Shown: positions 18,838-44,409 of the stretch, piece after piece | How the letters are laid out: each line of letters begins with the position of its first letter | Position numbering within the stretch: the first letter of the stretch is position 1 | From: Paludibacteraceae bacterium | GTDB taxonomy: Bacteria > Bacteroidota > Bacteroidia > Bacteroidales > Paludibacteraceae | Assembly (NCBI GenBank): GCA_024401535.1 | Contig: JAKSKX010000007.1 | Coordinates: forward strand, 1 to 64,000 | DNA: 64,000 nucleotides | Direction: 5' to 3' | The notes under the pieces: model-generated | What the model was told of the DNA's origin: nothing | The model's database searches: none | The model's input: the letters and a program-made list of their open reading frames with translations, nothing else | Translations under genes and position numbers: made by a program

Positions 18838-18968
18838 AAGCGTTCGCTTTTCGAGTCAATCTAAAATCGCCAATTTTAAGTAAACAACCGAAAGTGAACG
18901 TCTGGGTGTATGCTATACACTCGGACGTTACTGTTTGTTTACGGGTGTTTGGCGATACCTAGATTGGC
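18838..18968 (+). ncRNA. structured leader element, copy A (four stacked helices)
   Basis: This 131-base element folds into one long rod. P1 pairs GTCAATCTA (18855-18863) with TAGATTGGC (18960-18968). P2 pairs ATCGCCAA (18866-18873) with TTGGCGAT (18949-18956). P3 pairs GTAAACAA (18880-18887) with TTGTTTAC (18935-18942). P4 is a 15-bp hairpin from 18897-18911 to 18915-18929, extended by AGT/ACT. The 3' strand between P3 and P1 holds GGGTGTTTGGCGATACCT. A second copy at 44277-44409 keeps the same pairings with different bases in P1, P3 and P4, which is strong evidence for selected structure. It ends 30 bases before the HTH start, so it may be a cis-regulatory leader, a separate RNA, or a DNA hairpin used by a protein. 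Confidence 0.75.
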
Positions 18969-18998
18969 GCAGTGGCGTCCGTTTCGTTTTAATACACT

Positions 18999-19232
18999 AT
19001 GAACAATAACAAAGAGACACAAGAACTACATGTGGGCAAGATGATTGAGGCCTACCTTAATGAGAACAAGATACCTAAAGTGAAATTCGCCGAACTTATT
19101 TCGTGTTCAAGGGGGAATGTATATAACATTCTAAATAGCCCAAGTGTAAACACCCAAATGCTACAGCATATATGTTATGTTTTGCAGCATGATTTCTTTT
19201 TTGACATCAGCAAGAAGTATATTAGAGTGTAA
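18999..19232 (+). CDS. small XRE/Cro-type HTH protein, cassette A
   Basis: The 77-residue protein is a single helix-turn-helix domain: LHVGKMIEAYLNEN forms the first helix, FAELISCSRGNVYNIL the HTH core, and LQHICYVLQHDFFFDIS the last helix. It belongs to the orphan small Cro-like proteins common in Bacteroidales. About two thirds of aligned residues are identical to the cassette B protein (44431-44661). Both follow the same structured element and precede a palindrome and promoter, so it likely controls the cassette. There is no Shine-Dalgarno sequence. Confidence 0.85.
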   Translation: MNNNKETQELHVGKMIEAYLNENKIPKVKFAELISCSRGNVYNILNSPSVNTQMLQHICYVLQHDFFFDISKKYIRV

Positions 19233-19239
19233 CGAATTA

Positions 19240-19253
19240 CTGTACATGTACAG
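19240..19253. promoter_or_regulatory. perfect palindrome, candidate HTH operator A
   Basis: CTGTACATGTACAG is a perfect 14-base palindrome 7 bases after the HTH stop and about 45 bases before the next -7 element. Cassette B has TTTACATGTAAA at the same place; the shared core is TACATGTA. Confidence 0.55.
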
Positions 19254-19296
19254 AAAGTCGTGACATTGATTTGAGATGTTGTGTTGTTTTTGAATT

Positions 19297-19304
19297 TAAT
19301 TTTG
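19297..19304 (+). promoter_or_regulatory. -7 element for cassette A cargo
   Basis: TAATTTTG precedes GCGT exactly as TACTTTTG does in cassette B. The leader to ATG 19451 would be about 140 bases and includes a tiny frame of 11 codons at 19347, which I do not call as a gene. Confidence 0.5.
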
Positions 19305-19450
19305 CGTCCGACAAAGTAAACTATCTGATTTTGGAAATCTACCACAATGACTTTTGTTGAGAAAAAGTTATTGGATATTTAAGAAGTAGAGAGGAGACAG
19401 ATAGGTATTGAGACTGTATTTGTTATATTAATAAAATCTTTCAATTAAGT

Positions 19451-20152
19451 ATGAACAAGAAATTTGATGCAGATTTTGTAAAAGTGGCAGGACTAAGTTG
19501 GATTCCGTGGGTAGGAGACAATTACGAGAATGCTTCATGCAAAGTTTTGTTGGTAGGCGAAAGTGTGTATGCAACAAATGACAACGATGACACTTTGGAA
19601 CATTATGATGAAATTAACTCTAACCCTGACTATGTGAGAGAACGAAATGTAAAATGGTGGGCTAATGACGAAAAAAATGTCAACCCACGTCCATTCCCTA
19701 AAAATACAATGGATCTACTTTGTCGAGAGAATGCTCAATTAGACAAGAACTCTTTTTGGAATGGTGTGGCATTCACAGAGTTGATACAGGTGGCTATGAG
19801 CAACAGTTCGGACAGACCAGCTTCTGCGCAACGTGAGGCAGGATTAGTTGCATTGTTTGAGACAATAGATATTCTTAAGCCTGATTATGTCTTGTTTTTG
19901 CATAATGAGAGTTTAGAGGACAAGTATATGAGAAAGGTAGCGAAAACGCTTAACCTTGATTTCTCTGAGTGTCAATGGATAGAAAGTAACAATGTGAGAA
20001 ATCACATGCGTTTTTCTACTTACAAGCAATATAAACTGATTGCTGTTCCGCATCCGTCTCGTGTAATGACATCAGACAAGTTGCGCTCAGATTGGTATGA
20101 AGAACTTAAGCGTTGTTACCCAGATATGATTAACTATTTCAACAGCTTGTAA
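19451..20152 (+). CDS. uracil-DNA-glycosylase-like protein, cassette A cargo
   Basis: The 233-residue soluble protein shows the two landmarks of the UDG fold: a hydrophobic first strand leading into a polar loop, CKVLLVGESVY at residues 30-40, and a C-terminal strand into HPS, LIAVPHPSRVMTSD, with H201-P202-S203. Central parts (FTELIQVAM, PDYVLFLHNESL) fit the alternating fold. The canonical GQDPY water-activating motif is not present, so base excision activity is uncertain. Codon use is AT-rich compared with ychF and metG, suggesting transfer. It is followed by its own terminator. A defence or nucleic-acid-sensing role is inference from context. Confidence 0.65.
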   Translation: MNKKFDADFVKVAGLSWIPWVGDNYENASCKVLLVGESVYATNDNDDTLEHYDEINSNPDYVRERNVKWWANDEKNVNPRPFPKNTMDLLCRENAQLDKNSFWNGVAFTELIQVAMSNSSDRPASAQREAGLVALFETIDILKPDYVLFLHNESLEDKYMRKVAKTLNLDFSECQWIESNNVRNHMRFSTYKQYKLIAVPHPSRVMTSDKLRSDWYEELKRCYPDMINYFNSL

Positions 20153-20203
20153 CAAGCAAAATAGTCAGAACAAGATTTGACCATTTGCTTTGAAGATAAC
20201 CAT

Positions 20204-20250
20204 AACAAATCACTATTCGTATGTTTAAGAATAGTGGTTTGTTGTCTTTT
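20204..20250 (+). terminator. terminator after the UDG-like gene
   Basis: AACAAATCACTATTC pairs with GAATAGTGGTTTGTT (15 bp, one wobble) across a short loop, then TTTT. Confidence 0.8.
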
Positions 20251-20290
20251 GTTGAATAATCTGTTTTTTTATAATAATTGAGCTAAACCA

Positions 20291-21004
20291 ATGAAATACA
20301 AGTACAAACCTAAAACAAAAAAAGAATTGATTAAAGCTATTAGTGCTGAAATCAAGAAACAAGGCTATCAGGCAGACCTTAATTGTATTGACACATCTGC
20401 GATTACTAATATGCAATTGTTGTTTGCCATAGAGAGTTATGATGAAATTCCGTATGCTGCTCATGAATTTAACGGCGATATTTCTCAATGGGATGTTTCC
20501 AATGTGTCAAACATGGTCGGGATGTTTGCGGGAAGTACATTTAATGGCGATATTTCTAAATGGGACGTCTCAAATGTGACAAATATGCGTTCGATGTTTT
20601 CAGAAAGTACCTTTAATGGAGATTTGTCGCGTTGGGATGTCGGCAAAGTTACTGCTATGGACGGCATGTTTACAAGAAGCTCCTTTAATGGGGATTTGTC
20701 GCGTTGGAATGTTAGCAATGTGACTGATATGTGTGAAATGTTTAGAGAAAGCTTGTTTGACGGAGATATTTCGAATTGGGATGTTTCCAGTGTGACAGAA
20801 ATGGGTGGAATGTTTAGAGAAAGCTCGTTTAACGGAGATGTTTCGCGTTGGAATGTCAGCAATGTGACAGATATGTTTGAAATGTTTAGTGGAAGCAGTT
20901 TCAACGGGGATGTTTCTAAATGGAAGGTGGGTAAAGAAACCACAACGAAAGATATGTTTTTACAAAGCAATTGTCCAGTTCCTGATTGGTATAAAGATAT
21001 TTAA
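20291..21004 (+). CDS. DUF285/BspA-like repeat protein, cassette A
   Basis: The 237-residue protein has a lysine-rich start (KYKYKPKTKKELIKAI), a short unique region and then seven near-perfect 24-residue repeats of the type FNGDISxWDVSNVTNMxxMF. This is the DUF285 pattern seen in Mycoplasma and BspA-type surface proteins, where it mediates protein contacts. No signal peptide is visible, so it may stay in the cytoplasm. It follows a strong terminator without a clear promoter. Gain and loss of repeats could alter its binding face. Function is unknown. Confidence 0.8.
   Translation: MKYKYKPKTKKELIKAISAEIKKQGYQADLNCIDTSAITNMQLLFAIESYDEIPYAAHEFNGDISQWDVSNVSNMVGMFAGSTFNGDISKWDVSNVTNMRSMFSESTFNGDLSRWDVGKVTAMDGMFTRSSFNGDLSRWNVSNVTDMCEMFRESLFDGDISNWDVSSVTEMGGMFRESSFNGDVSRWNVSNVTDMFEMFSGSSFNGDVSKWKVGKETTTKDMFLQSNCPVPDWYKDI
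20468..20971 (+). repeat. seven 72-base coding repeats
   Basis: Seven in-frame units of 72 bases each encode 24 residues starting with F(N/D)GD. Units differ by scattered substitutions but not in length. Confidence 0.85.
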
Positions 21005-21027
21005 ATCGGGTTCATAAAGGCCCTGTT

Positions 21028-21064
21028 CAAGAGGTTAGTTCTCCCGAACTAACCTCTTGTTTTT
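21028..21064 (+). terminator. intrinsic terminator after cassette A
   Basis: CAAGAGGTTAGTTC and GAACTAACCTCTTG form a perfect 14-bp stem with a TCCC loop and a T run. It closes cassette A. Confidence 0.93.
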
Positions 21065-21117
21065 ATATAAATATTTTAAGTCTATTGTTTTGTTTTCGTT
21101 ATCTGCAAAAAAATACG

Positions 21118-21125
21118 TAACTTTG
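21118..21125 (+). promoter_or_regulatory. -7 element of the S66 peptidase gene
   Basis: TAACTTTG matches the consensus 28 bases before ATG 21154. Confidence 0.65.
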
Positions 21126-21153
21126 CACATAAATCTATATTGTAAGATAGTTT

Positions 21154-22200
21154 ATGAAGTTATTGACTAAGTTATTTGCTCTTTGTGGTGGTTTGGTTGT
21201 GATGTCTTCGTGCGGAGACGACATAACTAACGAGTACGTTACAAACGAGTACTATAACATATACAACAAGGAGTATTATACAACTGTTCTTGCCGACCAG
21301 AAGGAGATTACAGAGGATATTCGTGCGCCTTTCCTAAAGAAGGGAGACACTGTCGGTATCTTCGCCTTGTCTAATGCTGTTACAAGGGATGAGCTTGCTT
21401 CGGGAATAGCAACAATCAAGAGCTGGGGGCTTAATGTCCTCGAGGCAGATAACCTTTACGAAGTTGACGGACGCTATGCGGGAACGGTCTCGCAGAGAGT
21501 TGACGGCACACAGAAGCTGATAGACAACCCTAATGTCAAGGCTATGATTGCCGCTAGAGGTGGTTATGGAGCTGCAATGACTCTTCCTTTCCTTGATTTG
21601 GAGGCGCTTCAGAACAAGCCTAAATGGATTGTCGGCTATAGCGATGTCACTGCTTTGCATGTTGCGATAAACAATCTTGGTGTAGAGACTATTCATGGCG
21701 GAATGGCACAGAACCTTTCCAACAGCACAACTGCAGAGAGCCTTAGAAAGACATTGTTCGGAGAGAGCGACGGACTTGAGATAGGTATAAATGACGGTTG
21801 CAAGGAAGGTGTTGCCCAGGGCAGACTTGTCGGGGGAAACCTTTCTCTTATCTATAGTCTTGGAGGTACAGTTTACGACTTGAACGCCAAGAATGCCATC
21901 TTGTTTATCGAAGATACCGGAGAGAGCAACTACAGCCTAGACAGAATGCTTACACAGTTGAAATTGAGCGGTAAGCTTGATATGCTTAGCGGTGTTGTCG
22001 TAGGCCAGTTCATCAAGATGAATCAGGGTATGGACAAATCAGTAAAGGAAATTATAAAGGAGAAATTTGCTGATATAGACATTCCTATCATGTACGGTGT
22101 AAATGTCGGACACGACCAGCCCAACAATTCCATCTGTCTCGGCAGAACTGTAAAGCTGACTGTTGACGCCAGCAAGGCTTCGTTAAAGTACGTTGATTAA
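21154..22200 (+). CDS. S66-family carboxypeptidase lipoprotein (LD-carboxypeptidase/MccF-like)
   Basis: The 348-residue product has a lipoprotein signal (VMSSCGDD) and an S66 catalytic fold. The nucleophile is S163 in VGYSDVT, with E253 in FIEDTGES and H320 in GHDQPN completing the triad. ARGGYG upstream is a family signature. LdcA enzymes trim the terminal D-alanine from muropeptide tetrapeptides, while MccF cleaves microcin C; the lipoprotein form would act in the periplasm or at the outer membrane. Which of these it does cannot be decided from sequence alone. Confidence 0.88.
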   Translation: MKLLTKLFALCGGLVVMSSCGDDITNEYVTNEYYNIYNKEYYTTVLADQKEITEDIRAPFLKKGDTVGIFALSNAVTRDELASGIATIKSWGLNVLEADNLYEVDGRYAGTVSQRVDGTQKLIDNPNVKAMIAARGGYGAAMTLPFLDLEALQNKPKWIVGYSDVTALHVAINNLGVETIHGGMAQNLSNSTTAESLRKTLFGESDGLEIGINDGCKEGVAQGRLVGGNLSLIYSLGGTVYDLNAKNAILFIEDTGESNYSLDRMLTQLKLSGKLDMLSGVVVGQFIKMNQGMDKSVKEIIKEKFADIDIPIMYGVNVGHDQPNNSICLGRTVKLTVDASKASLKYVD

Positions 22201-22212
22201 AAGTTTTTAGTG

Positions 22213-22929
22213 ATGAGAAACATTTTGCTTTTCATATTTTTGTCCTTGACTGTTGGCTTGTCTGCGCAGTCCAGGAAACACAGACAGATGTACGATGAAA
22301 TTGCGCAAATCTGCAGGGTTAATGACTGTTTCAACTTGATGGATTTTTACATGAAGAATTCAGTTATGGCCAAACAAACTAGAGATTCTGTAGCGAAATA
22401 TAATGTTGAGTATGTGATGGATAAGTTTACTGTAAAGGAAATGCAGGATTCAGCATATTCAAAGTTCAGCGGGTTTCCTGAGAATGTTATGGTTTCTATT
22501 AAATCAATGCTTTCAAATCCTGCACTTGCTGGATGTTTGGATTTCAACAGTATAATTATCATTAGAAGTGATAGTGAGAAAGTTAAGGAAATATTAGAAA
22601 AATTGAATGAGAATTCTAATGCTGAGATATCTCCTATTCATCAATGGAGTGCTGATGATTTGAAAAAGGCTGCAAAAACTTTTCAGTTGCTAGAGAAGTT
22701 AAATACGATTGGTCGTCAAAGTGGGGAGGTAACAGTGGAACCTTGGGGAGGATATAGTTCAAACGAACTAAGGAAAGCTGCTGACGACATGAAGTATCTT
22801 GAAAAAGTGAAATTTTTAGGAAAAATGTTAGAAGCTATAGAAGAAGCTCCTTCTAAGGTGATAGGAAAACTGGTGAGAAAGCAAAACAGCCTTTTGGAAG
22901 CCAAAGGTGTTGACTATAGGGTTAGATAA
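22213..22929 (+). CDS. secreted protein of unknown function
   Basis: The 238-residue protein begins with a signal peptide (LLFIFLSLTVGLSAQS) and is otherwise soluble, helical and rich in K and E, with two SADDLKKAAK / SSNELRKAADD-like segments about 50 residues apart that may be an internal repeat. I do not recognise the family. It starts 12 bases after the S66 gene and stops 21 bases before metG, so the three may be co-transcribed. Codon use is more AT-rich than in its neighbours. Confidence 0.65.
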   Translation: MRNILLFIFLSLTVGLSAQSRKHRQMYDEIAQICRVNDCFNLMDFYMKNSVMAKQTRDSVAKYNVEYVMDKFTVKEMQDSAYSKFSGFPENVMVSIKSMLSNPALAGCLDFNSIIIIRSDSEKVKEILEKLNENSNAEISPIHQWSADDLKKAAKTFQLLEKLNTIGRQSGEVTVEPWGGYSSNELRKAADDMKYLEKVKFLGKMLEAIEEAPSKVIGKLVRKQNSLLEAKGVDYRVR

Positions 22930-22950
22930 ATAAAAGAAAATCAAGATATA

Positions 22951-25044
22951 ATGGAAAAGAAATATAAAAGAACGACCGTGACTTCGGCACTTCCATACGC
23001 AAATGGACCAGTGCATATCGGTCACCTTGCAGGAGTGTATGTGCCTGCTGATATCTATGTTCGCTATCTTCGTTTGAAGGGCGAGGATGTAATTTTCATC
23101 GGTGGTTCTGACGAACATGGAGTGCCTGTAACTATTCGTGCAAGAAAAGAGGGCATTACTCCACAGGATGTTGTTGACCGCTACCACAAGATTATCAAGG
23201 ATTCGTTCGCTGAGTTCGGAATCTCTTTCGATGTTTACTCTCGTACAACATCAAAGATTCATCATAAGTTGGCTTCTGACTTCTTCAAGACTTTGTACGA
23301 TAACGGCAAGTTCGTGGAGCAGACAAGCGAGCAGTACTATGACGAGGAGGCTAAGACTTTCTTGGCTGACCGCTACATTGTTGGTGAGTGTCCTCGTTGT
23401 CACGCACAGGGAGCTTACGGAGACCAGTGTGAGAAGTGCGGTAGCACTCTTTCTCCGGAGGAGTTGATCAATCCCGTAAGTAAGCTGTCAGGTTCTAAGC
23501 CGGTCAAGAGACCTACAAAGCATTGGTTCTTGCCTTTGAACCAGCACCAGGATTGGTTGAAGAAGTGGATTTTGGAGAACCACAAGGAGTGGCGTTCAAA
23601 TGTATATGGCCAGTGCAAGAGCTGGTTGGACATGGACCTTATGCCACGTGCCGTAACTCGTGACTTGGAGTGGGGTATTCCAGTTCCAGTTGAGGGTGCT
23701 GAGGGCAAGGTGCTTTATGTTTGGTTCGATGCACCTATCGGTTACATCAGCAACACTAAGGAGATTTGCGACGCTAACCCAGAGAAGTACGGTAATTGGG
23801 AGAAGTGGTGGAAGGACGAGGACACTCGCTTGATTCACTTCATTGGCAAGGACAATATCGTGTTCCACTGCATCGTGTTCCCTGCAATGCTAAAGGCAGA
23901 AGGCAGCTACATCCTTCCAGACAATGTTCCAAGCAACGAGTTCCTTAACCTTGAGGGTGACAAGATCTCTACATCTCGCAACTGGGCTGTATGGTTGAAC
24001 GAGTATTTGGTTGATTTCCCAGGCAAGCAGGATGTTCTTCGCTACGTGCTTACTGCAAATGCTCCAGAGACTAAGGACAATGACTTTACTTGGAAAGATT
24101 TCCAGGCAAGAAACAACAGCGAGCTTGTAGCCATCTATGGAAACTTCATCAACAGAGCATTGGTTCTAACTTCAAAGTATTTCGACGGAAAGGTGCCTGC
24201 ATTGAAGGAGTTGACAGACTATGACAAGGAGACTCTAAAGGAGTTCGCTGATGTCAAGGCTCGCCTAGAGCAGTTGCTTGACAACTTCAAGTTCCGTGAT
24301 GCGCAGAAGGAGGCTATGAACCTAGCTCGTATCGGTAACAAGTACTTGGCAGAGACTGAGCCTTGGAAACTTGCTAAGACTGATATGGAGCGCACTGCTT
24401 CTATCCTTCATATTGCATTGCAGATTGCAGCTAACCTTGCAATCGCATTCGAGCCGTTCCTTCCATTCTCGTCTGAGAAGCTTCGCAAGATGTTGAATAT
24501 GCAGTCGTTCGAGTGGAATCAGCTTGGTAATGTTGATTTGTTGAAGGTTGGTGCTGAGCTTGGCAAGGCAGAGCTTTTGTTCGAGAAGATTGAGGATGAC
24601 GCTATCGAAGGACAAATCAAGCGTCTGGAGACTATCAAGAAGGAGAACGAGGCTGCAATAGCTGAGGCAGAGGCTAAACAGGCTGCCGCTTCCTGGAAGC
24701 CTGAGGCTGTCAAGGAGTATGCTGACTTCGAGGGATTCGAGAAGCTTGACATTCGTGTCGGAAAGATTCTTGAGTGTACAAATGTGCCTAAGTCAGACAA
24801 ACTTCTTCAGTTCAAGATTGATGATGGTATGGGTGGACGTACAATTCTTTCAGGTATAGCGAAGAGTTACCCTAATCCTGCGGAACTTGTCGGCAAGCAG
24901 GTATGTTTCGTGGCTAACTTCAAGCCAAGAAAGATGATGGGTATCGAGAGCCAGGGAATGATTATGTCTGCGGTGAACAGCGACGGCAAGCTTGTAGTTA
25001 TCTCTCCAAGCAAGGAAGTCGCAAACGGTTGTGAAGTAGGATAA
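22951..25044 (+). CDS. metG: methionine--tRNA ligase
   Basis: The 697-residue synthetase charges initiator and elongator tRNA-Met. The HIGH motif is HIGH at residues 22-25 after PYANGPV, a zinc knuckle has CPRC and CEKC pairs near residue 150, and the KMSKS loop is KISTS at 338-342. The C-terminal ~110 residues form the EMAP/Trbp-type tRNA-binding domain (LDIRVGKI to the end). Length and order match long bacterial MetRS of the MetG1 type. Confidence 0.97.
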
Positions 25045-25052
25045 TTTTTCAT

Positions 25053-25085
25053 AGAGATAGGGGAGTGCTTCATTCCTCTATCTCT
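25053..25085. terminator. hairpin after metG
   Basis: AGAGATAGGGGA pairs with TCCTCTATCTCT with one wobble. No T run follows on the plus strand, so termination may be weak. Confidence 0.5.
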
Positions 25086-25103
25086 AAATAATAATATATT
25101 ATT

Positions 25104-25451
25104 ATGAAAACGTTTGATATTGTACTAATTGTAATAGCTCTTGTTCTAGTAGCTGTTCTATTGCCAGAGCTGCCAAGTTTTCCAGGATTCGGACTGTTTG
25201 GTTTATTGATAAAGTTGGCAAGTTTTGTGTTACTAATGCTCTTCGTTTTTTATTGGAAGTTTGCGCAGTATAAAGGTTCAATGAGTGAAAGTTGGGCAAA
25301 GCTTATAGAAAGCGGAGAAAAGATTTTTCTTCCTGTATTGAACTGGTTAGACAGTAAGGTAAGCAAGATTACACTGGGACCTAAGTTAGTGACAAGCAAA
25401 TCTCCGCTAATAATAGTAGGAGTATTGTCCTTTTTAATTTTTATATTTTAA
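25104..25451 (+). CDS. small inner-membrane protein of unknown function
   Basis: This 115-residue protein has three hydrophobic segments (about 5-22, 34-52 and 99-115) with a polar stretch between the second and third (SESWAKLIESGEKIF). The family is not recognised. It starts 60 bases after metG and ends 27 bases before an SPFH-domain gene, so a membrane-linked job together with that protein is possible. Confidence 0.6.
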   Translation: MKTFDIVLIVIALVLVAVLLPELPSFPGFGLFGLLIKLASFVLLMLFVFYWKFAQYKGSMSESWAKLIESGEKIFLPVLNWLDSKVSKITLGPKLVTSKSPLIIVGVLSFLIFIF

Positions 25452-25478
25452 ATTAAGATTTAGAGTAATTTATAAGTT

Positions 25479-26279
25479 ATGAATAAAGTTAGAGTTTTTT
25501 TAATAATCTTTATCCTGTTCGCAGTTATAGGCTTGGGTATAAAGTGGTTGGTAGGTGTCGAGAGAATCGACGCAGGTTATGTTGGTATCCGCGTTAACCT
25601 TGTAGGTGGAGAGCGTGGAGTTGCCGATGTAGAGGAAGTTACCGGTTGGGTTGTTTATATGCCGCTTTTGACACAGATTCACGAGTTCCCTACATATATG
25701 CAGGTAAAGGACTACAATTCATTCCCTGTAACAACAAAGGACGGAGCTGAGTTTACAATCGACCCAATCTTCTCTTACAGAGTTGACAATGGCAAGGTGC
25801 CTCACATCTTCCGTACATATCGTCGTTCTCTTCCTGAACTTGAGGAGGGTTACCTTCAGAACGTCATTATGGACAGCTACCGTTTGGCGGCAAACCAGTA
25901 CATCTCTGACTCTTTGATTTCAAACCGTATGTTGTTCGAGAACGCTGTTGAGTCTCATATCAGAGAGGTGCTTGGCAAGGACGGATTCATATTCGAGCAG
26001 CTTACATCAAACATCAAGGCTCCTCAGTCATTGATGGATGCCATCGAGGCTAAGAACCGTGCCACTCAGGAGGCTATCCAGGCAGAGAACAAGCTTCGTC
26101 AGGCTGAGGCTCAGGCAAAGCAGAACGTGATTTTGGCCGAGAGTGAGAAGAAGGTTAACGACTTGAAGACTTCATCTTTGACTCCGCTTATCATTCAGCA
26201 GATGTTTATCGAGAAATGGGACGGTAAGCTTCCTGTATATGGCGAGACTCCAAAGATTTTCAAGGAGGTTACCAAGTAA
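25479..26279 (+). CDS. SPFH/Band 7 (prohibitin-like) membrane protein
   Basis: The 266-residue protein has one N-terminal membrane helix (about 5-23), a Band 7 domain with AGYVGIRVNLVGGERGV and TKDGAEFTIDPIFSYRV, and a coiled-coil stretch rich in A, E and Q (about 190-235). Prohibitin-like proteins assemble into large rings in the inner membrane and often work with the FtsH protease or organise lipid domains. No protease gene lies next to it here. Confidence 0.88.
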   Translation: MNKVRVFLIIFILFAVIGLGIKWLVGVERIDAGYVGIRVNLVGGERGVADVEEVTGWVVYMPLLTQIHEFPTYMQVKDYNSFPVTTKDGAEFTIDPIFSYRVDNGKVPHIFRTYRRSLPELEEGYLQNVIMDSYRLAANQYISDSLISNRMLFENAVESHIREVLGKDGFIFEQLTSNIKAPQSLMDAIEAKNRATQEAIQAENKLRQAEAQAKQNVILAESEKKVNDLKTSSLTPLIIQQMFIEKWDGKLPVYGETPKIFKEVTK

Positions 26280-26304
26280 TCGAAGTAAAGCACAGTCATA
26301 TAGC

Positions 26305-26339
26305 CAGCCATGGACTCAAGCGAGTCCGTGGCTGTTTTT
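26305..26339 (+). terminator. intrinsic terminator after the SPFH gene
   Basis: CAGCCATGGACTC and GAGTCCGTGGCTG form a 13-bp stem (one wobble) around AAGC, followed by five T. Confidence 0.9.
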
Positions 26340-26449
26340 CTGTAGGCAGCAAATTCTGAAATTAAAATACAAACTGTTTTTTATGTGCTTTTATTTTTTC
26401 TTTGATATAGCATAGAGTTCGATTTGTAAGTATGTAAAAATTGATTGCC
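26340..26449. other. AT-rich spacer before the IS remnant
   Basis: Nothing codes here. Together with the terminator, the IS remnant and the short stretch 26580-26644 it makes up the 365-base gap between the SPFH and PPOX genes. Confidence 0.5.
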
Positions 26450-26579: not shown

Positions 26580-26644
26580 AATTTCCTTTCTTAATCCATA
26601 AAATAATTGGCATACACCAACCTTTAAAAATTTGTTCCATATTC

Positions 26645-36265: not shown

Positions 36266-36285
36266 TGTCGGTTAAATTCAGACTT

Positions 36286-36822: not shown

Positions 36823-36836
36823 CAATTAATATATAT

Positions 36837-37832
36837 ATGAAAGCAAGATTAGCTGCACTGTTTGTGCTACTCGTGTCAGGTTTGTCACTGTTTGCGAACG
36901 ATGAAGTGTTTGTCAAACCAGATGATGAAATTTTTGACAAGACAAAGAAGGCGGAAAGCCCCGACACTCCATTGATGTTCGAGATTATGTCAAATACAAC
37001 AGTAAAGGTTGTGGATTATATTCCGTCCTCAGGTATTGATTCCGTAGTTGTGCCTGAAAAAGTGCAAATAGAAGGCAAGGAGTATAAAGTTGTTTGTATA
37101 GGGAAAAAGGCTTTTGGTGGTTACAGAAAGCTCAAAAGTGTAGAGCTTCCGTCAACTTTGACTACTATCGAGGATTTTGCATTCAGCTACAGCGAAGATT
37201 TGTCAAGAGTTATTATTCCTTCTAGTGTTTACAAAATAGGTGAAAGGGCATTCTTTAGATGTAAAAGATTAACAACAATTAATATTCCATCTGGAATTTC
37301 AACTATAAGTGAAGGGGCATTCGCGTATTGTGAGAATTTGGAAGAGATTGTTATTCCTTATAGAGTATTTACAATTGAGAGCAATGCGTTTAGAGGGTGT
37401 AAAAAGTTGTCAAAAGTAGAAATTCCAAATTCGGTTGAGAAGATAGGTGATGGAGCATTCCTCGATTGCGAATCTTTGGCTAGTATAGAAATCCCCTGTT
37501 CTGTGGAAGCGGAGGCTTTCAGTTATTGTAAAAATTTGAAAAGTGTCAAGCTTCCTGAGTACGGAAGAATTATTGGAACTAGGGTTTTTGCATTCTGCAC
37601 ATCGCTAGAAAGTGTTGAGTTGCCCCAATCCCTTGAAAGTATTAAGCCAGGTGCATTCCAGGATTGCAAAAGTTTGAAGAAAGTTATTGTTCCTTCGAAA
37701 GTGAATCGCATAGGTGAGCGAGCCTTTATGAATTGTGAGAATCTGGATTTGATTATAGATAATTCTCAGGACAAAGTATATTTGGAATATCAAGCGACTT
37801 ATAATTGTAAGTCTGTAACGTATAAAAAGTAA
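36837..37832 (+). CDS. secreted BspA-type leucine-rich repeat protein
   Basis: The 331-residue protein has a signal peptide and about ten LRR_5/BspA repeats of roughly 23 residues, such as SSVYKIGERAFFRCKRLTTI. BspA-like proteins of oral and gut Bacteroidetes bind host matrix proteins or other bacteria. No C-terminal sorting domain or lipobox is visible, so its anchoring is unclear. One repeat (around residues 220-230) is shortened. Confidence 0.87.
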   Translation: MKARLAALFVLLVSGLSLFANDEVFVKPDDEIFDKTKKAESPDTPLMFEIMSNTTVKVVDYIPSSGIDSVVVPEKVQIEGKEYKVVCIGKKAFGGYRKLKSVELPSTLTTIEDFAFSYSEDLSRVIIPSSVYKIGERAFFRCKRLTTINIPSGISTISEGAFAYCENLEEIVIPYRVFTIESNAFRGCKKLSKVEIPNSVEKIGDGAFLDCESLASIEIPCSVEAEAFSYCKNLKSVKLPEYGRIIGTRVFAFCTSLESVELPQSLESIKPGAFQDCKSLKKVIVPSKVNRIGERAFMNCENLDLIIDNSQDKVYLEYQATYNCKSVTYKK

Positions 37833-37851
37833 AAATCAAGAAATTAACAAG

Positions 37852-37881
37852 CAAGGCAATCGAGAAATCGGTTGCCTTGTT
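37852..37881 (+). terminator. intrinsic terminator after the LRR gene
   Basis: CAAGGCAATCG pairs with CGGTTGCCTTG (one wobble), followed by TTTGTTG. Confidence 0.78.
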
Positions 37882-37948
37882 TGTTGTGTGTCTAATCTAC
37901 TTTTTAGTAAAAAATCCCCAAAATAGCAATAATTTATAAAAAAAGCAG

Positions 37949-37956
37949 TATCTTTG
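37949..37956 (+). promoter_or_regulatory. -7 element of ftsX
   Basis: TATCTTTG ends 6 bases before ATG 37963, so the transcript would be leaderless. Confidence 0.68.
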
Positions 37957-37962
37957 CCAGAT

Positions 37963-38835
37963 ATGGCGAAAGGTGTTGCTAAATATAAAATCTTCAATTC
38001 GAAGCTTACTGCCATCGTATCAATTTCGATGGTGCTGTTTCTTCTTGGTCTGGTCTCTATGGGACTTATGATAGAGGACAAGCTCAGCAGCTATGTAAAG
38101 GAAAACTACATAGTTAGTCTGACTATTCGTGATGGTTCTTCGGACAAGGATGTGCAGACGACACTTGATATTCTGAAGGGCAAGGAGTACACGAAGGAGG
38201 TCAAGTACATCAGCAAGGAGGACGCATTGAAGGAACTGACTGAGGAGATGGGCGAGGACCCAGTTGATTTCCTTGGCTACAACCCTTTGTTTGCATCTTT
38301 TGAAATCAAGTTGAAAAGCGAGTTTGCCGAAGCAGCCAAGATAGATAAGATTGCAAAGGAACTCGGAGGCCTTTCAGTGTTGAAGGAGATTCGTTGTCCA
38401 AAGCAGTTGATGGAGAAGGTGAACAACAACATCAACAGGCTGTCATTCCTTTTGCTGTTGTTCTCTGCAGTGCTTCTGTTCATCTCGTTTGTGCTGATAA
38501 ACAATACGGTGAGACTGCTTATATATTCTGACAGATTCTTGATTCATACCATGAAGCTTGTTGGTGCGACACGAAGTTTTATTCGTCGCCCATACATGAA
38601 GACAGGTGTGGTTATCGGACTGCTTGCGGCATTGTTTGCCATTGGGTATGTGCTTTTGATGTCGTACCTGCTTGACGACAAGTTGAGGCTGTTCATCGAC
38701 TTCAATGATATGAGCGTGTATGCTGTCATGTTCGCGACAATCCTGGTTTCGGGCATAGTGATAACCCTGATAGCAACTTACCTGTCAGTGAACAAGTTCC
38801 TGAACAAGCACGAGGGAGACCTCTATTACATATAG
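37963..38835 (+). CDS. ftsX: cell-division protein FtsX
   Basis: The 290-residue membrane protein has the FtsX layout: a first helix (about 20-42), an extracytoplasmic domain with YISKEDALKELTEEMGEDPVDFLGYNPL, and three C-terminal helices. With the ATPase FtsE it controls peptidoglycan hydrolases at the septum; ftsE is not in this window. ATG 37963 was preferred over an ATG three codons upstream because it fits the promoter and the family start. Confidence 0.93.
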   Translation: MAKGVAKYKIFNSKLTAIVSISMVLFLLGLVSMGLMIEDKLSSYVKENYIVSLTIRDGSSDKDVQTTLDILKGKEYTKEVKYISKEDALKELTEEMGEDPVDFLGYNPLFASFEIKLKSEFAEAAKIDKIAKELGGLSVLKEIRCPKQLMEKVNNNINRLSFLLLLFSAVLLFISFVLINNTVRLLIYSDRFLIHTMKLVGATRSFIRRPYMKTGVVIGLLAALFAIGYVLLMSYLLDDKLRLFIDFNDMSVYAVMFATILVSGIVITLIATYLSVNKFLNKHEGDLYYI

Positions 38836-38865
38836 TTAAAGAACAAAAAAGAAAACATAATAGAT

Positions 38866-39144
38866 ATGAAATCTGAATATGCATTGAGAAAAGGCAATTT
38901 TATATTGCTTGCAGTTAGCTTCTTCATTATCGTGATTGGCTTCGTGTTGATGATAGGAGGCGGAAGCGAGGGCAAGGAGTTCAATCCTGAAATCTATAGC
39001 ACACAACGTATAACTGTAGGCCCAATGATTTCCCTTTTCGGTTTCGTGCTTGCTATATTCGCTATTCTTTGGGCGCCAAAGGGTAACGGAAACAAGTTTG
39101 ACAAGATGTTGGGTGAGGATGAGTCATCTGTCAACGAAGATTAA
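38866..39144 (+). CDS. DUF3098 small membrane protein
   Basis: The 92-residue protein has two membrane helices (about 12-30 and 50-67) joined by a short loop with GGGSEGKEFNPEIYSTQRITVGPM, the DUF3098 pattern. In Bacteroidetes it lies between ftsX and uppP, as here. Function is unknown; the gene order suggests a link to cell-wall growth. Confidence 0.85.
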   Translation: MKSEYALRKGNFILLAVSFFIIVIGFVLMIGGGSEGKEFNPEIYSTQRITVGPMISLFGFVLAIFAILWAPKGNGNKFDKMLGEDESSVNED

Positions 39145-39184
39145 TTAGAAAAATAGTTTTGGTATTTTATAATTCATTATCAAG

Positions 39185-40057
39185 GTGGATTGGTTAGAAG
39201 CACTTATCTTAGGTATAGTACAGGGACTTACAGAGTTTTTGCCTGTTAGTAGTAGCGGACACTTGACTATAGGTCAGGAGATTCTTCATTTGAATACAGA
39301 TGGAGGGGATAACCTCCTTTTTGACGTCATAGTTCATGCGGCAACAGTATGCAGTACTATTGTTGTACTATGGCATGAGATTTCAAAGTTGTTGAAGGGA
39401 ACATTTACAACTAAAGAGTGGAACGAGGACAAGGAGTATGTGCTAAAGATTGTCATCTCCATGATTCCTATCTTCATTGTTGGCATATTCTTCAAGGATA
39501 CTGTTGAGGCTATCTTTGGTGAGGGATTGCTTGTTGTGGGATGCTGCCTGTTGCTTACAGCTACACTTCTTGCATTCTCGTACTATGCAAAGCCAAGACA
39601 GAAAGAGGAGATTTCACGAAAGGATGCATTCATTATTGGTATAGGTCAGGCTTGTGCAGTGTTGCCAGGTCTGTCACGAAGCGGAACAACTATCGCAACA
39701 GGTCTATTGCTTGGAAACAAGAAGGAGTCGGTTGCAAAGTTCTCTTTCCTAATGGTTCTTGTGCCTATCCTAGGAGACGCATTCCTTGAGTTGCTAAAGA
39801 TTATCAAGCACAAGTGTCCGGACTGCAAGACAGTGATGGAGATGGTAAACGGAGACTATTTCTGCCAGGTTTGCAATAAGGTTCAGGATTTGGCCTTGGG
39901 TGTTGATGTGATGGTCGTAGGTTTCCTAGCGGCATTCATTTCGGGAGTTTTGGCGTGCAAGGGAATGGTAGAGTTCGTGAAGAAGGGTAAGATGATTTAC
40001 TTCTCTATATACTGCGCAATAATCGGATGTTGGGCTATCGCATATAGCTTGATGTAA
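39185..40057 (+). CDS. uppP: undecaprenyl-diphosphatase with inserted zinc-ribbon-like loop
   Basis: The 290-residue BacA/UppP enzyme recycles undecaprenyl diphosphate to the monophosphate carrier. Active-site motifs are [14 protein letters not shown] and PGLSRSGTT. The start is GTG 39185. Unusually, a loop before the last helices carries CPDC (C211, C214) and CQVC (C227, C230), a zinc-ribbon spacing that I do not expect in this family. It sits in a ftsX-DUF3098-uppP-truB-queA run. Confidence 0.93.
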
Positions 40058-40067
40058 TAAAGGAAGT

Positions 40068-40781
40068 ATGGATTTCGTAGAAGGAGAAGTATTATATTTC
40101 AACAAGCCTCTTCATTGGTCGTCCTTTGATTTGGTAAACAAGGCGAGAATAGGCATCCGCCACTGTCTTGGGGTTAAGAAAATCAAGATAGGCCATGCGG
40201 GAACACTTGATCCGCTTGCTTCCGGTGTACTTATTATCTGTACCGGAAAGAAGACTAAGCAGATTGATAACTTCCAATATCAGACTAAGGAATACGTGGC
40301 AAAGATAATGCTTGGAGCAACAACTCCTTCATTCGATCTCGAGACTGAGGTTGATGCAACTTATCCGACAGACCACATAACAAAGGAGTTGGTTCTTGAG
40401 ACTCTAAAGACATTCCTTGGTGAGATTCAACAGATACCCCCGACTTACTCGGCTGTCAAGATTAACGGCAAGAGAGCCTATGAGTATGCACGAAAGGGTG
40501 AGGAAGTAGAGATAAAGCCTAAGACTCTTGTCATTGACGAGATAGAGCTTATGGACTGCTCGCTTCCAGAGATTACAATTCGTGTGGTTTGTAGCAAGGG
40601 AACATACATCAGAGGTTTGGCGAGAGATATTGGCAAAGCTTTGAATAGTGGAGCGCATCTCACAGCTTTGGAACGTACACGCATCGGAGACGTAAAGTTG
40701 GAGGACTGCATCACACTCGAACAGTTCCAGTTCCTTCTTGACCATTCATCGGACATCGTTGTACCCGAAGAACAAGTTTAA
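40068..40781 (+). CDS. truB: tRNA pseudouridine(55) synthase
   Basis: The 237-residue enzyme converts U55 of tRNA to pseudouridine. The catalytic aspartate is D48 in GHAGTLDPLASGVL; KEYVAKIMLG and GTYIRGLARDIG are further signatures. It starts 10 bases after uppP. Confidence 0.96.
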   Translation: MDFVEGEVLYFNKPLHWSSFDLVNKARIGIRHCLGVKKIKIGHAGTLDPLASGVLIICTGKKTKQIDNFQYQTKEYVAKIMLGATTPSFDLETEVDATYPTDHITKELVLETLKTFLGEIQQIPPTYSAVKINGKRAYEYARKGEEVEIKPKTLVIDEIELMDCSLPEITIRVVCSKGTYIRGLARDIGKALNSGAHLTALERTRIGDVKLEDCITLEQFQFLLDHSSDIVVPEEQV

Positions 40782-40811
40782 CATTTAGAACAAGACAAAA
40801 TTATTTCATAT

Positions 40812-41861
40812 ATGAAGCTGTCACAATTTAAGTTTGAGTTACCAGATGAGCTAATCGCTCAGTATCCTACAGAGGAGAGAGACGAGTGTCGTCTTTTGGT
40901 GTTGCATAAGAAGACAGGAGAAATAGAGCACAAGGTGTTCAAGGACGTTCTTGACTATTTCGATGATAAAGACGTTTTTGTGTTTAATGATACTAAGGTG
41001 TTCCCTGCTATTCTTCATGGTAACAAGGAGAAAACAAATGCTAATATCGAGGTAACTCTACTTAAGGAGTTGAACCCAGAGATCAAGCTTTGGGATGTAT
41101 TGGTCGAGCCAGCACGTAAGATTCGTATAGGAAACAAACTGTATTTCGGTGAGGACGACTCTCTTGTGGCAGAGGTTATCGACAATACAACTTCAAGAGG
41201 TAGAACACTCCGCTATTTGTTCGATGGAACATACGAGGAGTTCAAGCAGACTTTGGACAATTTGGGTGAAACTCCGCTTCCTCCATATATCACTCGTCCG
41301 GCAGAGAAGGCCGACAGAGAGAGATACCAGACTTATTATGCTAAGAAGGAGGGTGCTGTTATGGCTCCAGCTGCGGGAATGCACTTCTCTCGCGAGCTTT
41401 TGAAGAGACTTGAAATCAAGGGTTGCGAGTTTGCATACGTTACTTTGCACGCAGGTTTGGGCAACTTCAGAGATGTTGATGTTGAGGAGTTGACTCGTCA
41501 TAAGACTGATTCTGAGCCGTTGTTTATCACTGAAGAGAATACAGAGATTATCAATCAAGCCAAAGAGGAGAGAAGAAACATCTGTGCTGTAGGTGCAACA
41601 ACCCTTAGGGCTCTAGAGACTTCTGTAACTACTTCTGGTACAGTCAAGCCTTTCGAGGGATGGACTAACAAGTTCATCTTCCCTCCTTATAAGTTCAGTG
41701 TTGCCAATAGATGCATCACTAATCTTCACCTTCCATACTCAACATTGTTGATGATGTCTTGCGCTTTCGGTGAGTACGATGTTGTGATGAAGGCATATCA
41801 GGAGGCGGTGAAAGAGAAGTATCGTTTCGGAGCATTCGGCGATGCTATGCTTATTATGTAA
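40812..41861 (+). CDS. queA: S-adenosylmethionine:tRNA ribosyltransferase-isomerase
   Basis: The 349-residue enzyme makes epoxyqueuosine in tRNA from the preQ1-modified base. Signatures include [21 protein letters not shown], the block [13 protein letters not shown] and the C-terminal [16 protein letters not shown]. Full length for the family. Confidence 0.96.
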
Positions 41862-41902
41862 TTTTAGGGAAAGATATTTAGACAATATATTAAATCATAT
41901 TG

Positions 41903-43597
41903 ATGATGAGCAAACAGATGAAGGGTGCATACATTCTCATGGAGAGCCTATTGAAGGAGAATGTTGACACTATTTTTGGGTATCCTGGAGGTAGCATCAT
42001 GCCTACCTTTGACGCTCTTTATGACTATATGGATAAGTTTAATTATGTCCTTACACGTCATGAGCAAGGTGCAACACACGCAGCGCAGGGATACGCACGA
42101 GTCAGTGGTAAGACTGGTGTTTGCTTAGTGACTTCAGGACCAGGTGCCACTAACGCAATCACAGGAATTGCTGATGCAATGATGGATTCTACTCCTCTTG
42201 TGGTGATTGCAGGTCAGGCTGGTGCGGCTTTCCTTGGTACAGATGCGTTCCAGGAGGTTGACCTTATTGGTATCACTAATCCGATTACAAAGTGGAACTA
42301 TCAGATTCGTTCCGCAGCAGATATTGCTCCAGCTGTAGCAAAGGCATTCCATATCGCCAACACTGGTAGAAAGGGGCCGGTTGTGCTTGACTTCGCAAAG
42401 AATGCTCAGGTAGAATTGGCAGAGTTTGTTTACGAGAAGTGTCATTTCACTCGCGGATACATTCCTTTCCAGGCGGTAAGTCCTGCGCAGATTGATGCCG
42501 CTGCAGAGATTATCAATAATGCAAAGAAGCCTTTAGCCCTTGTAGGTCAGGGTGTTGTCCTTGGTAACGCTGAGGCTGAACTTAAGGCATTCCTAGAGAA
42601 GGCAGACATCCCTGCTGGTAATACACTTCTTGGTTTGTCTGCGCTTCCTTCTGATCATCCTTTGAACAAGGGTATGCTTGGAATGCACGGAAACGTAGGT
42701 CCGAACATTAAGACTAACGAGGCTGACGTTATTATAGCCATAGGTATGCGCTTTGACGACCGTGTAACCGGTGATTTGAAGACATACGCTAAGCAGGCCA
42801 AGATAGTTCACCTTGATATCGATACTGCAGAGCTTGACAAGAACGTCAAGGCAACTGCTAAGGTTGTTGGAGATGTTAAGGCAACCCTTCCAGAGCTTAC
42901 TCTAAAGCTAAAGGAGGCTAAGCACACTGAGTGGATAGAGAGCTTCCGTGAGTATGAGTTGAAGGAGGAGCAGAAAGTTATCCGTCCTGAGGTCGGTTCT
43001 ACTGAAGGTCCTCTTAAGATGGGTGAGGTTGTACGTAAGATTTCTGAGGCAACAAACAACGAGGCTGTACTTGTTACTGACGTAGGTCAGAACCAGGTTA
43101 TGGCGGCCCGCTACTTCAAATATACAAAGTCCCGCAGTGTTGTAACAAGCGGCGGACTTGGTACTATGGGATTCGGTATCCCTGCAGCTATCGGAGCCAA
43201 GATAGGTGCCCCTGAGCGTACAGTATGTATGTTCGCAGGAGATGGAGGATTCCAGATGACTATCCAGGAGCTTGGTACTATCATGGAGAAGCAGATAGGT
43301 GTCAAGATGATTATTCTTAACAACAACTATCTTGGAATGGTACGTCAGTGGCAGCAGTTATTTTATGACGCAAGATATTCATCTACTCCTATGCTAAACC
43401 CTAACTTCAAGGCTATTGCAGAGGCGTATGGCATCAAGGCGGCGGAAGCTACAACAAGAGAGGAGCTAGACAAATCTATCAAGGAGATGTTTGCAGACGA
43501 CAAACCATATTTGTTGATTGCAAATTGTGAGGAGATGGGTATGGTTTATCCTATGGTTCCAGCCGGAGAAACAGTTACTAACATTCTATTGGGTTAA
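41903..43597 (+). CDS. ilvB: acetolactate synthase, large catalytic subunit
   Basis: The 564-residue ThDP enzyme forms acetolactate or acetohydroxybutyrate, the first common step to valine, leucine and isoleucine. FGYPGGSIMP, the catalytic-site Glu in TRHEQGATHAAQGYAR, and the ThDP-binding GDGGFQMT...NNNYLGMV region are intact. Two ATGs (41903, 41906) and an upstream TTG are possible starts. No ilvD or ilvC gene is in the window. Confidence 0.95.
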   Translation: MMSKQMKGAYILMESLLKENVDTIFGYPGGSIMPTFDALYDYMDKFNYVLTRHEQGATHAAQGYARVSGKTGVCLVTSGPGATNAITGIADAMMDSTPLVVIAGQAGAAFLGTDAFQEVDLIGITNPITKWNYQIRSAADIAPAVAKAFHIANTGRKGPVVLDFAKNAQVELAEFVYEKCHFTRGYIPFQAVSPAQIDAAAEIINNAKKPLALVGQGVVLGNAEAELKAFLEKADIPAGNTLLGLSALPSDHPLNKGMLGMHGNVGPNIKTNEADVIIAIGMRFDDRVTGDLKTYAKQAKIVHLDIDTAELDKNVKATAKVVGDVKATLPELTLKLKEAKHTEWIESFREYELKEEQKVIRPEVGSTEGPLKMGEVVRKISEATNNEAVLVTDVGQNQVMAARYFKYTKSRSVVTSGGLGTMGFGIPAAIGAKIGAPERTVCMFAGDGGFQMTIQELGTIMEKQIGVKMIILNNNYLGMVRQWQQLFYDARYSSTPMLNPNFKAIAEAYGIKAAEATTREELDKSIKEMFADDKPYLLIANCEEMGMVYPMVPAGETVTNILLG

Positions 43598-43601
43598 AAT
43601 T

Positions 43602-44219
43602 ATGGCAGAAGAATTTAAGGCTAACCGTTGCGGTCAGGATTGTCAGAAGTGCAACCCTGCAGAGTGCAATGATGGTAAGAAGTTGTTTACAGTTACAGTA
43701 TTCTCGGAGAATCAGGTTGGTTTGCTTAATCAAATCTCTATTATCTTCACTCGTCGTCGTTTGAACATCGAGAGTTTGAGCGTGTCTCAGTCCGCTCTTC
43801 CTGGCATCCATAAGTTTACTATTACAACTATTACTGACGAGGATACTATCGAGAAGGTGGTGAAGCAGATAGACAAGCGCATTGATATCATCAAGAGCTT
43901 CTATAATGACGACTCTGACCTTGTATATCAGGAGATAGCGATGTACAAGATTGCTACTCAGGATTTCATCAACCTTGGTGGAACAGAGGAGTTAATTAGA
44001 AAGTACAACATTCGCATTCTTGAGATTAACGAGACTTGTGTTATCTTCGAGAAAACAGGTCATTCTGACGAGACTCAAGGATTGTTCGAGGAGCTAAGCC
44101 AGAAACTGCAGGTCCTTCAGTTTATTCGTTCCGGTCGTGTGGCTATCACAAAATCTAAGATCGAGAGATTAAGTGACATGCTTGCAAAGATTGAGGCGCA
44201 CAAGATGATGTACGAATAA
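43602..44219 (+). CDS. ilvN: acetolactate synthase, regulatory small subunit
   Basis: The 205-residue protein carries an N-terminal ACT domain (about 27-100; FTVTVFSENQVGLLNQISIIFTRR) and a C-terminal domain seen in longer IlvN/IlvH subunits. It binds IlvB and confers feedback control by valine. It starts 4 bases after ilvB. An extra N-terminal segment has four cysteines (C10, C14, C17, C22) that could bind a metal. ilvC, which follows in related genomes, is replaced here by cassette B. Confidence 0.94.
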   Translation: MAEEFKANRCGQDCQKCNPAECNDGKKLFTVTVFSENQVGLLNQISIIFTRRRLNIESLSVSQSALPGIHKFTITTITDEDTIEKVVKQIDKRIDIIKSFYNDDSDLVYQEIAMYKIATQDFINLGGTEELIRKYNIRILEINETCVIFEKTGHSDETQGLFEELSQKLQVLQFIRSGRVAITKSKIERLSDMLAKIEAHKMMYE

Positions 44220-44241
44220 TGTTATTGAAAAGGAGGAGTTT

Positions 44242-44262
44242 AAAGTTTAGTTAGACTTTTTT
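44242..44262 (+). terminator. possible weak terminator after ilvN
   Basis: AAAGT and ACTTT pair around a short loop and T residues follow. The stem has only 5 bp, so read-through into cassette B is likely. Confidence 0.35.
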
Positions 44263-44276
44263 ATTACATATTTTTT

Positions 44277-44409
44277 AAGCGTTTGCTTTTTAGTTGCACC
44301 GAAATCGCCAATTTCAAAACAGCTGATAAAAGTAAACGCTCAGGTGTATGTATTCCATACGCTTGGGCGTTGTTGTCAGTTGTGGGTGTTTGGCGATACC
44401 TGGTGCGAC
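44277..44409 (+). ncRNA. structured leader element, copy B (four stacked helices)
   Basis: This 133-base element has the same architecture as copy A. P1 pairs GTTGCACC (44293-44300) with GGTGCGAC (44402-44409). P2 pairs ATCGCCAA (44304-44311) with TTGGCGAT (44390-44397). P3 pairs ACAGCTGAT (44319-44327) with GTCAGTTGT (44375-44383). P4 is a 16-bp hairpin (44335-44350 with 44356-44371) with a 5-base loop. P1 and P3 share almost no sequence with copy A yet pair fully, while P2 and the strand GGGTGTTTGGCGATACCT are identical. It ends 21 bases before the HTH start. No clear promoter lies between ilvN and the element. Confidence 0.75.

Follow-up and report, generated by a model that had tools for sequence, protein, structure and literature searches.

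The stretch of DNA analysed here, referred to as the window, comprises the first 64,000 nucleotides of the forward strand of contig JAKSKX010000007.1 from a Paludibacteraceae bacterium (GenBank assembly GCA_024401535.1). Two copies of a structured element, A and B, lie on its plus strand at 18838–18968 and 44277–44409, each directly upstream of a plus-strand gene for a small Cro/C1-type helix-turn-helix (HTH) protein. The gene behind copy A (18999–19232) encodes 77 amino acids, and the gene behind copy B (44431–44661) encodes 76. The original prediction had placed the element 21–30 bases before these genes. In line with this, its sequence is present at both sets of coordinates, and the distance to the ATG is 30 nt in A (18968 to 18999) and 21 nt in B (44409 to 44431). 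With the Pfam profile HTH_26 (cut-off 22), the protein behind B scores 27.3 bits, above the cut-off, and the protein behind A scores 20.5 bits, just below it. Our analysis suggests that the element is an RNA leader that can adopt either of two folds.

Both copies fold, as was claimed, into the same rod of four helices, with energies far below those of shuffled sequences. Copy A (18838–18975) reaches −55.5 kcal/mol (z −6.11) and copy B (44277–44415) reaches −63.3 kcal/mol (z −8.16); in neither case was any of 200 shuffles as good. Bases of helices P1 and P3 differ between A and B, and their pairing is retained; P2 has the same sequence in A and B. The element is near-palindromic, and therefore the opposite strands also beat their shuffles (z −5.85 for A and −5.29 for B), at energies 11 and 19 kcal/mol weaker than those of the sense strands. 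An 18-mer shared by the two copies, GGGTGTTTGGCGATACCT, occurs at exactly two sites in the window when up to three mismatches are tolerated, where none is expected.

In the predicted fold of copy A, the 5′ strand of P1 (18855–18863) pairs with 18960–18968 and the 5′ strand of P3 (18880–18887) pairs with 18935–18942. The inner strands I5 (18889–18913) and I3 (18917–18933) form the apical helix P4, which spans 18889–18933 and is also seen by covariation. In copy B, the corresponding partners are 44293–44300 with 44402–44409 for P1 and 44319–44327 with about 44375–44383 for P3, while I5, I3 and the apical helix occupy 44329–44375. The 5′ strand of P2 sits in both copies in an A/U-stem hairpin, H1, which appears in the fold of the left half: 18866–18873 within 18862–18878 in A, and 44304–44311 within 44301–44315 (stem GAAAU/AUUUC) in B. 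The 3′ strand of P2 lies in a second hairpin, H2, at 18949–18956 within 18944–18959 in A (GGU/ACC stem) and at 44390–44397 within 44385–44400 in B.

The element is longer than the roughly 130 nt given originally, about 18838–18990 and 44278–44430, because an upstream strand (U) and a downstream strand (D) with a U-tract belong to it. On the predicted pairings, these flanking strands turn the rod into one of two mutually exclusive folds. U can pair with I5, I5 with I3 (as in the rod), and I3 with D, after which a T-rich tract follows. The combination of U:I5 with I3:D, which is terminator-like, excludes the rod, because the rod needs I3 as the partner of I5 and the terminator-like form needs it as the partner of D. 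In copy B, U (44278–44296) forms 19 bp with I5 (44320–44326 and 44329–44340), and the left half alone folds in this way at −22.8 kcal/mol (z −4.43). The right half of B alone forms 15 bp between D (44410–44424) and I3 (44361–44375) that enclose H2 (−33.6 kcal/mol, z −5.13), and the terminator-like stretch 44410–44430 closes with a U7 (44424–44430) that ends at the AUG. In copy A, U (18838–18854) pairs with I5 at about 18889–18901 in the alternative fold, and D (18970–18981) forms 12 bp with I3 (18922–18933), followed by UUUCGUUUU, so that the terminator-like stretch covers 18970–18990; its halves alone have z values of −2.84 (left) and −3.32 (right). Among 93 members of the wider family, the mean z was −1.96 for left halves (below −2 in 47) and −3.65 for right halves (below −2 in 80), and the two halves summed were, on average, less stable than the rod alone by 1.2 kcal/mol and less stable than the best whole fold by 16.7 kcal/mol.

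The first relatives were fetched by a conserved 16-mer, GTGTTTGGCGATACCT. A scan of GTDB contigs gave at least 119 stretches with this 16-mer; some matches outside Bacteroidota (e.g., loci L015 and L031) do not carry the element and look like chance. Taken together with viral loci, loci of the window's own genome and the window itself, at least 114 stretches also carry the 5′ strand of P2, and at least 107 of these pass a filter of at least 6 bp in P1 plus the exact 16-mer. Alignment A1, with 72 relatives, was the source of covariance model R1. A search with a covariance model had been proposed for finding further copies, and R1 found many across the sampled genomes of the order. The window's own genome holds five copies, four strong and one weaker. 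Of the 9 genomes of the genus, 8 have matches, as do at least 56 of the 148 genomes sampled within the order, Bacteroidales as judged from labelled contigs (up to at least 20 in one genome), and at least 13 of 198 sampled within the phylum, own genome included in each case; the censuses of order and phylum are lower bounds, as scoring was confined to 22 or 16 candidates in each genome, under stricter filters. The exact element pattern is also present in 11 IMG/VR stretches. Searches with one member each found no match in plasmid records and, in phage records, just a 38-nt chance-level match in a Shewanella phage. Two matches can also be near neighbours on one strand: L409 has them at 989–1116 and 1201–1326, with about 85 nt in between (the second weak, at 31 bits, with no P2 call), and L416 at 401–530 and 1526–1655. 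L057 holds two copies as well, and those of L416 and L057 are 1–3 kb apart.

Several features of the sample bear on the counts below. P2 strands were called in all but 3 of 272 matches, 3 more of 275 having been dropped at contig ends. The resulting 269 include places fetched twice (257 distinct sequences), and we quote the 137 non-redundant members. P2 calls in the sets of 269 and 137 required Watson–Crick complementarity, so that P2 pairing there is partly by construction; counts for 105 members use MAFFT columns instead of complementarity-based calls. The covariation tables hold members with a middle-sized inner part only (72 of 93 and 105 of 137), and their null is our own tree simulation, with 25, 40 or 30 replicates. 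Member sampling leans to P1, P2 and P4, which are in R1, while the core of D and the scan columns of U lie outside its span.

In A1, standard pairs fill 91.7% of 1674 cells of the rod helices, and the covariation score of 0.373 exceeds both the 0.187 of shuffles and the values of slid partners, none of which is above 0.102. G-U pairs outnumber A-C by 180 to 40 among the 1674 cells of P1, P2 and P4. The idea of a covarying structured RNA holds in the wider family, where P1, P2 and the apical helix P4 all covary. The proposal that P2 stays invariant, as a site of binding or an active core would, is not supported. Its central 5-mer on the 5′ side takes 22 sequences among 105 model-found members, with TCGCC in 54, and pairing is kept: 46 of the 51 members with another 5-mer are fully Watson–Crick paired with the partner columns, and 6 of 7 P2 column pairs show at least two Watson–Crick types. 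P2 looked frozen in A1 because its members were picked by P2 sequence, the constancy among the first relatives having come from fetching by the exact 16-mer. Counting length variants, there are 65 P2 types in the 269 and 43 in the 137, or 19 after merging those with shared 6-mers; TCGCC is retained in 84 of 137. G-U pairs are nearly absent from P2 (3, versus 5 A-C, of 731 cells), a scarcity that would fit a loop–loop helix.

Both folds were examined by a swap test, in which the duplex energy of each of the 137 members with its own partner strand was compared to that with randomly swapped partners and also with partners from its 20 nearest relatives. Own partners were strongly preferred in P1 (−10.9 versus −3.4), P2 (−12.5 versus −7.6) and I5:I3 (−29.6 versus −16.4), and likewise in U:I5 (−16.2 versus −11.2) and I3:D (−25.8 versus −17.5). 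All five preferences have p<1e-21, and all five hold at p<1e-21 against the 20 nearest relatives too. The control pairings U:I3 and I5:D were not significant among these members.

Furthermore, an unguided scan considered all 5-bp helices in 105 members against a phylogenetic null simulated on their tree (30 replicates). No null value reached those of P1 (the top helix), of P2, of the apical helix P4 formed by I5 and I3, or of two I3:D segments. Next came another segment of I3:D (E 0.7), H2 (E 0.9) and U:I5 (E 1.4), and the first helix outside the model appeared at E 2.4. At the level of single pairs, five pairs of P1, five of P2 and one of P4 reached E 0 (none in 40 replicates). The windows of P4 and I3:D in the helix scan share columns 106–107 of I3, and therefore two exclusive pairings of one strand both seem to be kept. 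Column 105 of I3 changes on both sides with both of its partners, columns 96 and 173 (E 0.2 and 0.43). It is chiefly this apparent conservation of two exclusive pairings of I3 that speaks for a switch. Thus, I5:I3 and I3:D covary above the phylogenetic null in these alignments, and it is the swap test that argues for U:I5. In trp-type attenuators, four strands pair 1:2, 2:3 and 3:4. In the element, the swap test points to selection on all three corresponding pairings, and the helix scan on 2:3 and 3:4.

The pairing statistics also have a polarity. Read on the gene-sense strand, G-U pairs exceed A-C by 127 to 5 in P4, 152 to 15 in I3:D and 92 to 12 in U:I5, and therefore the gene-sense RNA appears to be the conserved form. 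This bears on the alternative that the element acts as a DNA palindrome, such as a repetitive extragenic palindrome (REP), a miniature inverted-repeat transposable element (MITE) or a recombination site such as attC, with covariation that stems from single-stranded DNA hairpins. Both strands do fold well, and among 100 loci searched with the model, 6 gave a weak match on the opposite strand. In addition, 11 of 12 fetched copies in genome G080 have promoter region and leader in common, and the genes behind them look unrelated. Yet BLAST matches between these copies have no common end points, the promoter motif and the T-tract both lie on the sense strand, and G-U pairs, even though not in P1 and P2, exceed A-C on the gene-sense strand in the other three helices. 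We consider a DNA-level origin very improbable. Integron-like cassette arrays are not favoured either, although no systematic search for them was made.

The motif TAnnTTTG, which we take to be the Bacteroidota −7 promoter motif, has 68 matches on the sense strand versus 10 on the opposite strand at −125 to −50 of P2 in 92 members, with a sense-strand peak 75–100 nt upstream of P2. It is accompanied by TTG at −33 spacing in 30 of the 92. Copy A carries a putative motif of this kind, TACTTTTG, at 18772–18779 on the plus strand, 94 nt before P2; by eye, no convincing −33 TTG lies at the customary distance from it. At the other end, of 93 members, 60 have seven or more T among 8 successive positions of the 52-nt region that holds D, compared to 7% of shuffles. 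A U-tract directly after the fourth strand and before the gene, as in an attenuator, is found here, more clearly against shuffles than against mirror tracts. For the gene context we used 128 of the 137 members, leaving out 9 with too little flank: 116 have a same-strand open reading frame that starts 20–260 nt downstream (median 88), 1 has one in the opposite orientation and 11 have none.

With the promoter motif on one flank and the terminator-like hairpin on the other, the element could also be a free-standing small RNA gene, with the following gene there only incidentally. However, this reading must contend with the 116 same-strand genes against a single opposite one, with the U-tract of copy B that abuts the AUG, and with two conserved exclusive folds for which a plain small RNA has no need. 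It is improbable in our view.

Instead, we propose that the element lies in the 5′ leader of the following gene and acts there in cis as a transcription attenuator, a reading to which we give a probability of about three in four on sequence evidence. Both predicted folds, their mutual exclusion, the strand polarity and the place between promoter motif and gene are supported by the comparisons above. Strands U, I5, I3 and D would act like strands 1–4 of a classical attenuator. As the RNA is being made, U would pair first with I5. The emerging I3, followed by the 3′ strands of P2 and P1, would then pair back, displace U and build the rod of P1, P2, P3 and P4. The rod would keep I3 from D and thereby allow read-through. 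If the rod were blocked, or U:I5 held, I3:D with the U-tract would form an intrinsic terminator just before the gene and turn it off. P2 would join the loops of H1 and H2, and this loop–loop contact may nucleate the change of fold; the off state would be reached when something holds I5 on U or separates the two loops. In our reading, the rod is the resting state, in which transcription reads through, because, in minimum-energy folds of the growing transcript, U:I5 (at least 6 pairs) comes first in 125 of 137 members and the rod stands at the end in 136 of 137. Termination at D and its U-tract in the cell, and the rod as the on state, are what we infer from this arrangement, and a signal, be it a ligand, a protein or the speed of transcription, would presumably act on the H1/H2 core.

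Several observations weigh against this proposal. The full-length thermodynamic fold favours the rod in 136 of 137 members, and therefore termination would need a signal or kinetics. In copy A, the U-tract is imperfect, and I3:D appears in the right half as the centroid only, the minimum-energy fold being a different structure of equal energy. T-tracts are partly background, as at least 7 T in 8 occur downstream in 92 of 137 members versus mirror A tracts in 50, and four T in a row in 125 versus 103. U:D shows a weak own-partner preference (p 2e-6) that is superfluous to the model. In the unguided scan, U:I5 reached only E 1.4 and H2 only E 0.9, and the best single pair of I3:D stands at E 0.05, with the next at 0.43. 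The shared I3 columns, 106 and 107, vary mostly on one side. G-U bias is lacking in P1 (36:28) and P2 (3:5). Finally, the downstream genes share no common function that points to a signal.

A fifth strand is conceivable. In loci L310–L321 of genome G080, a conserved stretch, AAGUCCC...GGGACUU, behind the U-tract can pair with D in many copies. The pairing of such a strand, E, with D, seen in G080 and G144, is weak family-wide (125 members, p 0.003 and 0.02).

What lies behind the element is diverse. The claim that it precedes small HTH genes stands for the window's own genome, where all four strong copies do so, with the weaker fifth preceding a secreted-looking protein of 388 amino acids; it does not extend to the wider set, in which just 14 of 116 downstream genes fit by N-terminal pattern. 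In an earlier set of 102 proteins from 113 elements, Pfam found LRR_5 (BspA-like) 11 times, HTH_26 6 times, DNA methylase 3 times and many families once, and by a crude rule 49 of the 102 have a signal-like N-terminus. Similar proteins follow the element in L096, L331 and L333, the latter two on IMG/VR contigs; the L096 protein has a match to the N-terminal part found in R subunits of type I restriction enzymes (HSDR_N, 1 of 102, assigned by sequence). On the other side of the element, ilvN lies directly upstream of copy B, and likewise in five loci of the same genus. Within the window, proteins with weak, sub-cut-off Pfam matches to the uracil-DNA-glycosylase (UDG) fold are encoded near both element–HTH pairs (19451–20152 and 45780–46553). 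A BLAST comparison of the two proteins gave no match at E 0.01, and a relative of the first (59% identity) is encoded on element locus L259 of the same genus. A surface-type protein with DUF285/PARCEL repeats (Pfam PF03382, NCBIfam TIGR02167) is encoded at 20291–21004.

This diversity of genes, together with the composition of the H1/H2 core, bears on how the switch might be thrown. The most constant feature of the family is the GGU...ACC frame around the 3′ strand of P2, read as GGT/ACC in 115 of 137 members, in a placing search that gave this frame a bonus, and as GGC/GCC in 7 of 137. The pairs of H2 are standard in 79–95% by alignment columns. One explanation is a metabolite or second-messenger riboswitch, in which the core (P1, H1, P3, H2, the complementary loops and GGU/ACC) binds a small molecule that chooses between rod and terminator. 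The near-constant frame, which the search favoured, the self-contained cis architecture with a terminator-like expression platform, and the presence in at least 56 of 148 genomes of the order would all suit this explanation. Against it, A1 shows no invariant unpaired core of the usual aptamer size beyond P2 and its flanks, and the controlled genes have no common pathway. Second-messenger riboswitches, though, can control diverse genes. On balance, we think that a riboswitch is rather unlikely.

An alternative explanation might be that a trans-acting protein recognises the H1/H2 core and throws the switch. An antiterminator resembling NusG, an RNA chaperone or the small HTH proteins would be examples. 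Such a protein would be consistent with GGU/ACC staying near-constant while the strands vary, and with the recurrence of small HTH genes behind the element (the 14 of 116, and four of four strong copies in the own genome). However, most controlled genes do not encode HTH proteins. Moreover, the P2 sequence varies from copy to copy within genome G080, and therefore a protein would have to read shape. We regard such a protein as doubtful.

More broadly, the attenuator may be part of a portable promoter-plus-switch cassette across Bacteroidales, in which a single global signal acts through a kissing-hairpin core while each copy has private strand sequences and pairs only with itself. Such a cassette would serve unrelated accessory genes, namely surface LRR proteins, DNA methylases, regulators and lipoproteins. 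We put this forward tentatively, as an idea with somewhat less than even odds.

In its logic, the element is a four-strand attenuator. Like trp-type attenuators, it has four consecutive strands that pair in two mutually exclusive ways, carries a U-tract at the last of them and sits immediately ahead of a gene. It differs in having, within its strands, a covarying P1 and two hairpins whose loops are complementary, and in that its genes are not of one pathway. It is further set apart because no leader peptide is conserved. Leader-peptide attenuation was therefore rejected: counting ATG starts only, a frame of at least 5 codons is present in just 37 of 137 leaders. Terminator-type riboswitches are structured leaders whose expression platform consists of an antiterminator and a terminator. 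The element is likewise a structured leader with a comparable platform, but it has a small constant core (GGU/ACC), genes of no shared pathway and no Rfam match. Kissing hairpins of the ColE1 RNAI/RNAII type have short stems and complementary loops of 7–8 nt. The same holds for H1 and H2, but as both lie in one transcript, their contact would be in cis.

Among RNAs described in Bacteroides, the small RNA family FopS/GibS is also multicopy and has Bacteroidota promoters; FopS acts in trans, has a single terminator hairpin and a 5′ stretch that is single-stranded, and is reported to be deposited in Rfam (PMC11697453). Membership of that family was rejected, because the element folds differently from the structure outlined there and matches no Rfam model (PMC11697453). 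Fremin and Bhatt (2021; PMC8040213) list palindromic structured candidates, mostly from Bacteroidetes, of about the element's size: HMP2_4205 (132 bp), near tetratricopeptide repeat (TPR) genes and predicted to be a terminator, and HMP_4078/HMP2_4078 (109 bp; printed under both names). The likeness is by description only, and the section that lists them describes no switch (PMC8040213). The bare motif may already be in this catalogue (PMC8040213).

With Rfam 15 at gathering thresholds, the whole window gave no match. Around A and B, 3 and 6 matches at E≤10 were far below threshold (best 16.9 and 15.7 bits). Among 19 relatives, Rfam matched just a signal recognition particle (SRP) RNA and a transfer RNA (tRNA) in one locus (L062), both away from the element. 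A known Rfam family was therefore rejected, in agreement with the claim that this is not a known RNA family. Taken together, further copies, significant covariation and the lack of an Rfam match leave the central claim of the original prediction standing. A search of the literature for the element found no description, and a four-strand RNA leader family of this kind in Bacteroidales is apparently undescribed so far.

If our interpretation is correct, a dominant gut phylum would contain a common, so far uncharacterised gene switch that links many accessory genes to one mechanism. Its copies would directly provide, for each genome, a list of candidate co-regulated genes. The element would also offer a two-state RNA with comparative support for studying folding during transcription, and possibly a part for engineering Bacteroides.

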